In this document: positions 24,558 to 28,538 of the stretch, piece by piece
How the letters are laid out: every line of letters starts with the position of its first letter
Numbering within the stretch: the first letter of the stretch is position 1
Origin: Ruminococcus flavefaciens
GTDB taxonomy: Bacteria > Bacillota > Clostridia > Oscillospirales > Ruminococcaceae
Direction: 5' to 3'
Assembly: GCA_902760805.1 (NCBI GenBank)
Contig: CACWHY010000021.1
Location: 1-39,938, forward strand
Length of the DNA stretch: 39,938 bases
Made by a program: the position numbers and the translations under genes
Notes under the pieces: generated by a model
What the model saw: only the letters and a program-made list of their open reading frames with translations
Told to the model about the DNA's origin: nothing
Databases searched by the model: none

Positions 24558-24586
24558 TTGACTTTAACGAACAAATGTTCTATAAT
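24558..24586 (+). promoter_or_regulatory. Promoter of the coiled-coil / sigma-like operon
   Basis: TTGACT (24558-24563), 17-bp spacer, TATAAT (24581-24586). A LexA-box-like palindrome fills most of the spacer. Confidence 0.85.
24568..24581 (+). promoter_or_regulatory. LexA/SOS-box-like operator 1
   Basis: CGAACAAATGTTCT matches the Gram-positive SOS box (CGAAC-RNRY-GTTYC) at 13 of 14 positions. It lies between the -35 and -10 boxes, where a bound repressor would block the promoter. Confidence 0.65.
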
Positions 24587-24601
24587 AAGTTCACAAGGAA
24601 T

Positions 24602-24615
24602 AAAACATTCGTTCG
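24602..24615 (-). promoter_or_regulatory. LexA/SOS-box-like operator 2
   Basis: On the minus strand CGAACGAATGTTTT matches the same consensus at 13 of 14 positions. It lies just downstream of the expected transcription start, with its centre 34 bp from that of operator 1. Confidence 0.55.
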
Positions 24616-24645
24616 GGGAACTCTTTCCAAAAAGGGGGACGTCCA

Positions 24646-24879
24646 GTGAAAAACATGATAAACGGCTATATCACAAGCTGCACACAGGTCAAGGAGCGCA
24701 TCGCTCAGCTGACTGAACAGAAAACTAAACTGAAAAAGCAGGGACGAACTGACCTTATCGACCAGCTCATGCTGGAAAGACGGATCCAGCTGCTTTACAC
24801 CGAGCACAGAGAAATGAAGGAGGTCATCGAATACCTTAGCGGCTATATGAGGAGGATCGAGCAGCGTGCCAAGACGTGA
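24646..24879 (+). CDS. Small coiled-coil protein, unknown
   Basis: A 77-residue protein, predicted almost entirely helical with heptad-like Leu/Ile spacing and many Lys, Glu and Gln (LTEQKTKLKKQGR). I do not recognise a family. The start is GTG with AAAGGGGGA about 8 nt upstream; an ATG three codons later is possible. Its 3' end overlaps the sigma-like gene by 14 nt, so the two are translationally coupled and probably work together, for example as a regulator with its anti-factor or partner. Two SOS-box-like sites sit in the promoter. Confidence 0.7.
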   Translation: MKNMINGYITSCTQVKERIAQLTEQKTKLKKQGRTDLIDQLMLERRIQLLYTEHREMKEVIEYLSGYMRRIEQRAKT

Positions 24880-25168
24880 AAGCTATTCCGATACCTTCAC
24901 AGGCCAGGCCGACAAAAATATCCGCCAGATCCTCTGTGAGGATCCGGACGAGGAGGACAACAGACAGCGGCTGCGGCGGATCCTGTTAAATGTTATTAAA
25001 AATGAGCTTACTCCGAGACAAAAGGAGATAATTATGCTATACTATTTTAAGAACATGGATATCGTCCAGATCGGAAAAATGCTGGGGATCACTCCTCAGG
25101 CAGTCTCGGCGGCTATGGCCCGTGGAAGGCTGAGAATGTACAGGATACTGAAATACTACTTGATATAG
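24866..25168 (+). CDS. Small sigma-70 region 4-like DNA-binding protein
   Basis: A 100-residue protein. Residues about 48-95 form a sigma-70 region 4 helix-turn-helix: LTPRQKEIIMLYYF, then IGKMLGITPQAVSAAMARGR. There is no region 2, so it cannot act as a full sigma factor alone. Proteins of this form occur as phage-type or accessory transcription factors. It overlaps the upstream small gene by 14 nt and ends 9 nt before the decarboxylase-family gene. With the SOS-box-like promoter it could be a damage-responsive regulator; that is inference. Confidence 0.8.
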   Translation: MPRRESYSDTFTGQADKNIRQILCEDPDEEDNRQRLRRILLNVIKNELTPRQKEIIMLYYFKNMDIVQIGKMLGITPQAVSAAMARGRLRMYRILKYYLI

Positions 25169-26660: not shown

Positions 26661-27644
26661 ATGAAAAAGATATATGGAAACGATGCGCTGATCGGGACCC
26701 TTAACGCCATGGTCCGCAGCGGAAGGACTGCACAGTCCCTCATCTTTTATGGCGAATCCGGCAGCGGCCGCTTTACCGCCGCCTCATACTATACGGCTCA
26801 GCTGGTGTGCCAGTCCCCCGTGGACAGCGCTCCCTGCGGAGAATGCCCGGCGTGCAGAGCTGTACGCTATGCCAGCCACCCGGACGTGACCCTCGTCCCC
26901 ACCAGCGGCAAGCTGGGAGGCTACTCTGTGGAAACTGCCCGTGCGGTCTGCGCAGATGCCTTCGTCAAGCCCAACAACCGCTCCGGCAGGAAGGTCTACA
27001 TCTTCCGCAACTGCCGAAATATGGACGTGCGCACTCAGAACACCCTCCTGAAGCTGATCGAGGAGCCCCCTGAGTACGCCACATTCCTCTTTACTGCGGA
27101 GTCAAAATATGAGTTCCTCCCAACGATCATCTCACGGTGTATCTGCTTCGGACTGTCCCTTTGCACCGAGGAGGAGTCCCGTATGGCGCTCCGGGAGGAG
27201 GGCTACGGCGAGGAGGAGATCGAGCGGGCTGTGAGCTGCTTTCACGGCAATGTGGGTATGTGCTCACGGTACATCATGGACGAAAAGCTCCGCAAGCTGG
27301 TGGATTTGACAAAAGCGCTGACTGATAGTATAATAAGAAAGGACGAGTACGGCCTCAACTGCGCTTTCTATTCAGTGGGAAGCGAAAGGGAAAACGTCAG
27401 GAACGTGCTCTCTATGACAGACAAGCTGTTCAGAGATGCCGCTGTTCTGGCAAAAGACAGCGACGCTAAAACTATCAGCTGCTTCCCCGACGGCGCCGCA
27501 AGGCTCTCTCAGACCATCACCGCTTATCAGTCCGCAAGGATCCACTATAAGCTGGAAAAGGCCTGGGACGCAGTTCAGCACAACGTCAGCGTACCCCTGG
27601 TGCTGGCCGGCCTTTGCGCCGAAATGATGGAGATCGTCAGCTGA
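26661..27644 (+). CDS. holB: DNA polymerase III delta' subunit
   Basis: A 327-residue AAA+ clamp-loader subunit. The P-loop reads GESGSGRF (31-38), with Arg where the essential Lys would be; delta' subunits do not bind ATP, so this is normal. A zinc module is formed by C50, C59, C62 and C65. The SRC motif appears in IISRCICF, and the sensor region is NTLLKLIEEPPEY. It helps load the beta clamp at the replication fork. It is followed 27 nt later by yaaT, the order found across Firmicutes, though tmk is not next to it here. Confidence 0.92.
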   Translation: MKKIYGNDALIGTLNAMVRSGRTAQSLIFYGESGSGRFTAASYYTAQLVCQSPVDSAPCGECPACRAVRYASHPDVTLVPTSGKLGGYSVETARAVCADAFVKPNNRSGRKVYIFRNCRNMDVRTQNTLLKLIEEPPEYATFLFTAESKYEFLPTIISRCICFGLSLCTEEESRMALREEGYGEEEIERAVSCFHGNVGMCSRYIMDEKLRKLVDLTKALTDSIIRKDEYGLNCAFYSVGSERENVRNVLSMTDKLFRDAAVLAKDSDAKTISCFPDGAARLSQTITAYQSARIHYKLEKAWDAVQHNVSVPLVLAGLCAEMMEIVS

Positions 27645-27671: not shown

Positions 27672-28538
27672 ATGAAAGAAATAGTTGGTATCCGCTTCAA
27701 AAAGGGCGGAAAGGTCTACTACTTCTCGCCGGAAAAGATCCGGGCCAATATCGGCGATATGGCTATCGTCGAGACTGTCCGTGGTGTCGAGTGCGGAGAG
27801 GTGGTCATCGCTAACAGAGAGATCGACGACAGCAATATCTCCTCCCCTCTCAAGCCCATAATCAGGCTTGCAGACGCAAACGACATGAAGACCCTTGAGC
27901 GCAACAAGCAGCGTGAGAAGGACGCCTTCCGTGTGTGCGAGGAGAAGATCGCCCTGCGCAAGCTGAATATGAAGCTGGTGGACGTGGAGTGTACCTTCGA
28001 CAACAACAAGCTGCTGTTCTACTTCACAGCAGAGAACCGTGTGGACTTCCGTGAGCTGGTCAAGGACCTGGCTGCGGTGTTCAGAACAAGGATCGAGCTG
28101 CGCCAGATAGGTGTCCGTGACGAGGCCAAGATCTTAGGCGGACTGGGTATCTGCGGAAGAGAATTCTGCTGCAAGAGCCACCTGGGCGACTTCCAGCCCG
28201 TTTCCATAAAAATGGCCAAGGAGCAGGGACTTTCCCTCAACCCCACCAAGATCTCAGGCACCTGCGGAAGACTTATGTGCTGCCTGAAAAACGAGCAGAA
28301 CGCCTATGAGGAGCTGCTGAAGATCACTCCCAAAATGGGAGCTCTGGTAGTTACTCCCGACGGCGATAAGGGCAGAGTTGAGGACGTTAACCTGATCACA
28401 GGCAAGCTCAGGATCAAGACCGAGAAGTCAGAGGTGCCCGTTACTCTTGACAGAAGCGAGGTCAAGCTGCTGAAGGACGGCCAGATCAAGATCCGCAAGG
28501 ACGAGCGTGACGCCCTGAAAAAGCTAGAGGACAAGTAA
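27672..28538 (+). CDS. yaaT: PSP1 domain protein YaaT (RicT)
   Basis: A 288-residue cytoplasmic protein. It carries the PSP1 C-terminal domain, with two cysteine clusters, CGREFCC (C161, C166, C167) and CGRLMCC (C198, C203, C204). In B. subtilis RicT these serve Fe-S binding in the Ric complex, which stimulates RNase Y-dependent mRNA maturation and affects sporulation, competence and biofilm. The position after holB is conserved. The next gene starts immediately after its stop. Confidence 0.92.
   Translation: MKEIVGIRFKKGGKVYYFSPEKIRANIGDMAIVETVRGVECGEVVIANREIDDSNISSPLKPIIRLADANDMKTLERNKQREKDAFRVCEEKIALRKLNMKLVDVECTFDNNKLLFYFTAENRVDFRELVKDLAAVFRTRIELRQIGVRDEAKILGGLGICGREFCCKSHLGDFQPVSIKMAKEQGLSLNPTKISGTCGRLMCCLKNEQNAYEELLKITPKMGALVVTPDGDKGRVEDVNLITGKLRIKTEKSEVPVTLDRSEVKLLKDGQIKIRKDERDALKKLEDK

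Follow-up and report, generated by a model that had tools for sequence, protein, structure and literature searches.

The window analysed here, a stretch of 39,938 nucleotides of Ruminococcus flavefaciens DNA, contains a sigma-A-type promoter followed by two small genes, one for a coiled-coil protein (cc) and one for a sigma-like protein (mini-sigma), and by further genes on the same strand (Table 1). Two palindromes resembling the LexA box accompany the promoter. Box 1 occupies most of the spacer and shares the first base of the -10 element, while the plus-strand reading of box 2 is AAAACATTCGTTCG. A sequence-only reading of this DNA had placed a palindrome inside the promoter spacer and had described two 14-mers, 34 bp apart and each matching the Gram-positive LexA box at 13 of 14 positions; both descriptions were borne out, with box 1 lying between TTGACT and TATAAT and the 34 bp being measured from start to start.

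Table 1. Features of the locus and their positions in the window
Feature	Position	Strand	Remarks
Sigma-A-type promoter, TTGACT-17-TATAAT	24558..24586	+	11/12 consensus bases; retained in relatives; -35 TTGACT at 24558-24563, -10 TATAAT at 24581-24586, spacer 17 bp
LexA box 1 (putative), CGAACAAATGTTCT	24568..24581	+	1 mismatch from CGAACRNRYGTTYG
LexA box 2 (putative), CGAACGAATGTTTT	24602..24615	-	downstream, past the promoter; 1 mismatch from CGAACRNRYGTTYG
cc, 77-residue coiled-coil helical hairpin, orphan family	24646..24879	+	GTG start backed by homologues
mini-sigma, 100 residues, sigma-70 region 4 only	24866..25168	+	GTG start backed by homologues
Orn/Lys/Arg decarboxylase-like gene, PF01276	25178..26503	+	9 bp past the mini-sigma stop
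holB, DNA polymerase III delta' subunit	26661..27644	+	possible distal operon gene; PF13177; TIGR00678 below its curated cut-off
yaaT/ricT (PSP1)	27672..28538	+	possible distal operon gene

The cc and mini-sigma genes overlap by 14 nt, and the earlier gene calls (a 77-residue coiled-coil gene overlapping a 100-residue sigma region 4 gene) hold. The structure model of cc has a pLDDT of 97.1, with helices at residues 2-31 and 43-76; searches of Pfam, PHROG and PDB returned scattered weak or generic coiled-coil matches and no convincing family. Mini-sigma matched PF08281 (E 2.8e-11) and PF04545 (E 6.8e-10) above the Pfam cut-off and the region-4-like UPF0122 below it, and showed a weak match, also below cut-off, to the NCBIfam entry PRK06930, 'positive control sigma-like factor' (E 1.8e-4). 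Its model (pLDDT 81.8) consists of a short helix followed by the region 4 bundle, and the fold matches were mostly sigma region 4 structures, the best Foldseek hit having an E value of 2.8e-3 and none reaching 0.001. Region 2, which recognizes the -10 element and binds core polymerase, was not found in either protein, mini-sigma being matched in region 4 only. Given the region 4 fold and the adjacency of the two genes, it is plausible that cc and mini-sigma constitute a transcription factor with its partner.

Raw counts of the boxes were uninformative. Allowing up to two mismatches, CGAACNNNNGTTCG had 12 matches in the window compared to 13.8 in shuffles, and these counts were dropped as evidence because they showed no enrichment. 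The broad pattern RGAACRNNYGTTCY with one mismatch was also discarded, since its 76 places in the own genome were fewer than the 247 of the reversed control. With at most one mismatch, the consensus occurred at eight distinct places in the whole 2.73-Mb genome (nine rows, one palindrome being counted double; reversed-pattern control, 54), and boxes 1 and 2 are two of these eight. As the looser patterns were not enriched, the case for the boxes rests on their position and conservation. We also considered that the -10 element might force the 3' half of box 1. This accounts neither for the conserved GAAC half nor for box 2. A clade without LexA has lost the GAAC half and retained a promoter.

In the leader (24587-24645) and in those of relatives, CAAGGAAT often follows directly after the -10 element, and 56 of 86 have AAGGA within their first 24 nt. 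The leaders of many species carry UCUCCCU opposite the AGGAGG ribosome site, as if masking it. An alignment fold gave no consensus structure for the leader RNA, and when the window and six other loci were scanned against Rfam, no family attained its gathering score.

Downstream, holB and yaaT were found farther along the same strand, as claimed from the sequence, with a decarboxylase-like gene that had gone unmentioned separating holB from the pair. This gene likely shares an operon with cc and mini-sigma, and it lies downstream of them in 75 of 80 named loci. In 57 of the 80, holB was found downstream (flank examined up to 5 kb). The gap between the decarboxylase gene and holB ranged from 1 to 883 bp over 56 measured loci, was 105 bp or less in 47 of them and contained a promoter-like match in one; the gap in the window is 157 bp. 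A perfect TTGACA-17-TATAAT is present within holB itself (27306-27334, plus strand), upstream of yaaT/ricT. Judged by gene order alone, it is possible that induction of the pair is coupled to the clamp-loader gene holB and to ricT.

A uvrC gene lies between mini-sigma and the decarboxylase gene in 14 of the 80 named loci (L255, L278, L285, L287, L289, L292, L294, L297, L301, L305, L306, L312, L314 and L319). One was confirmed by scan (TIGR00194, E 1.6e-157), and the other 13 are 72-89% identical to it, L297 over a partial length. Among the 13 evaluable uvrC-bearing loci, nine had boxes and four had none. L381 and L391 instead have a uvrC-like frame, assigned by likeness, upstream of the pair.

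Conservation of the gene pair and its boxes in Ruminococcus

Relatives of mini-sigma were detected in 114 of 125 genus genomes, including 67 of the 68 good ones, and cc scored clearly next to mini-sigma in 96 of the 114. The named contigs bearing a relative were nearly all Ruminococcus, many of them labelled R. flavefaciens. Two loci labelled Alistipes (L293 and L306) carry a Ruminococcus-type locus and probably come from mislabelled bins.

Upstream regions were scanned from 190 to 520 bp before mini-sigma, the more distant promoter of G122 being judged by eye, and at least 300 bp of this stretch was available for 109 of the 114 genomes; seven second mini-sigma copies and a third, broken copy in G062 were excluded from the counts. 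Allowing up to two mismatches to AGAACANNTGTTCT, we found at least one box in 82 of the 109 orthologous promoters (shuffle mean 2.0, maximum 5) and at least two in 59 (shuffle mean 0.03). Conservation of the boxes at orthologous pairs, which the sequence-only reading had put forward as a check on its proposal, was thus observed. The position of the boxes was conserved as well: all 73 boxes (up to two mismatches) starting 0-20 bp past a strict -35 element did so at exactly 10 bp, and the distance from the start of box 1 to that of box 2 was 33-36 bp in 50 of the 62 promoters having both. Within the named loci, a set that overlaps the genus genomes, 63 of 78 evaluable promoters had a box. The genus consensus differs from CGAACRNRYGTTYG mainly at the outer bases, which are A...T and not C...G.

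The exact motif AGAACANNTGTTCT was present at 36 places in 60 genus genomes, 24 of which have any; the window's genome has none. By hand count, 19 of these places are at the promoter of the pair and five are directly upstream of a Y-family polymerase gene, and the remaining 12 are fewer than the 23 found with the reversed-pattern control.

Evidence linking the boxes to LexA

The clostridial LexA boxes are given as GAACN4GTTC/T (PMC4234289). Of the 30 Y-family polymerase loci among the matches listed, 13 had a box shortly before the gene, one of them in the genome of the window (AGAACATTTGTGCT), and no box lay close upstream in the other 17. Nineteen boxes fell within 3,030 near-upstream positions of the listed Y-family loci, compared to six in 101,971 positions elsewhere; two of these loci (L106 and L122) are incomplete and their offsets unreliable.

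The window's own genome encodes a full-length LexA (G000:C3, 193 aa) whose alignment to solved LexA spans the Ala-Gly, Ser and Lys stretches, which we take to be the cleavage and catalytic stretches, and this LexA is predicted to be cleavable. LexA above cut-off was missing in 14 of the 125 genus genomes. Of the 97 LexA-positive genomes, 80 had a box, as against 2 of the 12 evaluable ones without LexA (Fisher p 9e-6, ignoring ancestry). When G066 and G113 were recounted, post hoc, as LexA-less, the figures became 80 of 95 and 2 of 14. The LexA hits of these two genomes are nearly identical S24 repressors of mobile elements (L327 and L328), and the S24 gene in L327 adjoins one that resembles ImmA on visual inspection. 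Boxes were retained in G009 and G112 though no LexA was found there. Seventeen of the 97 LexA-positive genomes, G066 and G113 included, had no box at up to two mismatches, and some box-less LexA-positive genomes (G110, G126, G144 and G145) carry near-miss boxes.

Genomes lacking both LexA and boxes cluster on a rapidly built tree of the short cc and mini-sigma sequences. Five changes are needed on this tree to explain the co-absence, two of which are forced by well-supported branches; we read it as about three events, one in a ten-row clade to which G066 and G113 belong, one in the pair G017/G128 and one in G019. An independent-pairs test of LexA loss against box loss was not significant, with two pairs on the well-supported branches only.

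At the lexA and recA loci of the window's genome, the only genome in which recA was considered, no box was found by either consensus; the scan covered these loci, where each gene begins directly after an upstream gene. Classical SOS regulons differ from this genome in having a box at lexA. The comparison of consensus sequences at lexA and recA, which the sequence-only reading had also put forward, accordingly had no box at these genes to draw on. Among the matches listed, none of the 29 LexA-domain loci of relatives (0/29) had a box within 1.5 kb upstream, at least one of these loci (L133) being a mobile-element repressor rather than chromosomal lexA.

The genus-wide conservation, the boxes at Y-family polymerase genes, the co-absence of LexA and boxes, and the presence of uvrC in the cluster together lend good comparative support to the predicted SOS control of the two genes. 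The sequence-only reading had proposed a damage-induced small transcription factor with a partner. Its damage-induced part gains this support, and its factor-and-partner part is plausible.

Rewired promoters and relatives outside the genus and in prophages

Eleven of the 12 evaluable LexA-less genomes retain a promoter match in the scanned stretch. One Ruminococcus clade that lacks a chromosomal LexA carries another palindrome, TTCTAC-N7-GTAGAA, which spans the -10 element and replaces the LexA box. The strict pattern was found upstream of the pair in eight genomes (L039, L213, L216, L226, L227, L229, L231 and L233), and G114 nearly has it. No XRE gene was recognized by eye in the nine LexA-less loci examined, 12 having been fetched; L385, L387 and L388 were fetched and left out of the analysis.

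When 295 genomes of the order were searched with the genus profile of mini-sigma, 22 matched at E 1e-12, of which two belong to the genus itself. Neighbourhoods were obtained for 17 of the 20 non-genus genomes, three of one already represented genus being left out. A coiled-coil ORF was seen by eye to precede mini-sigma in 15 of the 17 loci, all but L374 and L380. Profile comparison indicates that the genus and non-genus coiled-coil families are related (probability 89.8, E 1.8e-6; 9 sequences against 60, nine of the 15 non-genus cc being aligned). Three of the 17 loci (L370, L375 and L377) had a LexA-type box within 350 bp of mini-sigma, and in four (L365, L367, L369 and L380) mini-sigma was flanked by a divergent XRE gene. 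The other ten had neither, with a box-like site 560-580 bp away in L372 and L374. In L365 and L367 the XRE gene is accompanied by an IrrE-like peptidase, an arrangement of the DdrO-IrrE or ImmR-ImmA type; in the two further loci it stands without a peptidase. Neither the window nor the Ruminococcus loci viewed by eye showed such genes next to cc and mini-sigma. DdrO/IrrE and ImmR/ImmA sense DNA damage, and the XRE/IrrE-like pairs found here may do likewise.

Seven genus genomes contain a second, intact mini-sigma among phage-like genes (L332-L338). Nine of ten scanned neighbour proteins (L332, L335 and L336) matched tape-measure, tail, distal tail, holin, peptidase and endolysin PHROGs; the single L338 neighbour protein scanned had no PHROG match, and L333, L334 and L337 were called phage-like by likeness. 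When six of the prophage mini-sigmas were aligned, the other five were 34-46% identical to the first, and the first was 40-46% identical to chromosomal forms. The prophage mini-sigmas match PHROG sigma-factor and transcription-regulation families. A cc partner was not found beside these second copies. Viral contigs yielded no relative for two queries and five weak partial ones for a third, and phage records gave just one and two weak hits. The chromosomal mini-sigma of the window lies outside any phage. It may be a domesticated phage regulator, or the transfer may have gone in the reverse direction; either would fit.

A candidate regulator pair under putative SOS control

We consider it probable that the locus is a LexA-repressed DNA-damage operon carrying an SOS-induced, phage-type mini-sigma regulator pair. 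LexA dimers bound to box 1, in the -35/-10 interval, and to box 2 would block RNA polymerase. Upon damage, activated RecA would trigger LexA self-cleavage, as expected from the LexA family, and the operon would be expressed. The two proteins would most likely act jointly as a small phage-type transcription regulator, in which region 4 may touch the -35 element and RNA polymerase and the hairpin may provide oligomerisation or a further contact with RNA polymerase. Because a protein with region 4 alone is not expected to substitute for a sigma factor, mini-sigma would serve as a co-activator at promoters, or damp others. The distal genes (the decarboxylase gene, uvrC in some species, then holB and ricT) may rise with the pair.

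A different reading of the palindromes is that they are auto-operators through which mini-sigma, alone or with cc, represses its own promoter, LexA being uninvolved. The promoter of the pair is indeed the main place of the exact motif (19/36, by hand count), and the boxes adjoin the regulator's own gene while lexA and the own recA have none. However, the same motif precedes Y-family polymerase genes and fits the known clostridial LexA boxes (PMC4234289), and in 10 of 12 genomes without LexA the pair stays and the boxes are gone; we regard self-repression as improbable. Control mainly by another repressor, of the XRE type or a mobile-element S24 protein, with the LexA-like boxes being secondary, seems to us very improbable. 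The divergent XRE genes in 4 of 17 non-genus loci, two with an IrrE-like peptidase, would agree with it, as would the different palindrome over the -10 element in the LexA-less Ruminococcus clade, but Pfam revealed no repressor among the ten window proteins around the pair, none was recognized by eye in the nine fetched LexA-less loci, and the LexA-like boxes are conserved through much of the genus.

SOS control could also be right and mini-sigma still be no activator. It might damp transcription, as a decoy competing for the beta flap or as an anti-activator, or it might have a repair role beside UvrC and HolB. Without regions 2 and 3, mini-sigma would not be expected to open promoters by itself, and several surrounding genes are replication and repair genes, both of which lend some weight to this idea. 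The PHROG matches of the prophage relatives, to sigma-factor and transcription-regulation families, speak against it, although family names are not functional proof. On balance, we judge such a role unlikely, and retain the LexA-repressed operon with a regulator pair as the preferred interpretation.

In box sequence and promoter position, the system resembles the LexA/SOS regulon of Firmicutes (B. subtilis, C. difficile), with which it also shares an error-prone polymerase as co-target and, in the cluster of some species, uvrC (PMC4234289; PMC3998124, on the SOS meta-regulon of the gut). It differs from that regulon in having no box at lexA or its own recA, and in that the most conserved target found here is the mini-sigma/coiled-coil pair. 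Among UV- or SOS-controlled sigma factors, UviA of Clostridium perfringens is reported to be under such control and is comparable in this respect, but it is larger and encoded on a bacteriocin plasmid. ArpU is another sigma-like regulator, acting on phage late genes. Xpf of the B. subtilis prophage PBSX, a sigma-like positive control factor, is described as connected with DNA damage (PMC10141391); it is about 20 kDa, is listed with sigma2 and sigma4, and is prophage-linked. Xpf and mini-sigma are alike in being small, sigma-like and tied to the DNA-damage response, for mini-sigma by its probable LexA control; unlike Xpf as described there, mini-sigma has region 4 only, is chromosomal and has a coiled-coil partner. 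The same source lists SigO-RsoA of B. subtilis, in which sigma function is divided over two small proteins, under acid stress (PMC10141391); unlike that pair, cc has no detectable region 2. Our literature search, which covered articles without their supplements, returned no description of an SOS response or LexA in Ruminococcus, or of a region-4 sigma protein with LexA, and the printed record may differ.

A broader model, which we offer tentatively and consider rather unlikely, is that the cc/mini-sigma pair adds a second tier to the DNA-damage response across the order. It would be a portable regulator of RNA polymerase made up of two proteins, wired interchangeably to LexA or to XRE/IrrE-type repressors and partly shared with prophages, through which damage would switch on a dedicated promoter class besides LexA derepression. 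The best-conserved SOS target here seems to be a regulator rather than lexA or recA, a pattern suggestive of a relay. Were the pair to act as proposed, a factor with region 4 only would pass the damage signal on to further genes, and lineages could swap the sensor (LexA, or XRE with an IrrE-like peptidase) while the output is kept. The pair would also offer a concrete link, in gut bacteria, from the damage response of the chromosome to the regulators of prophages.
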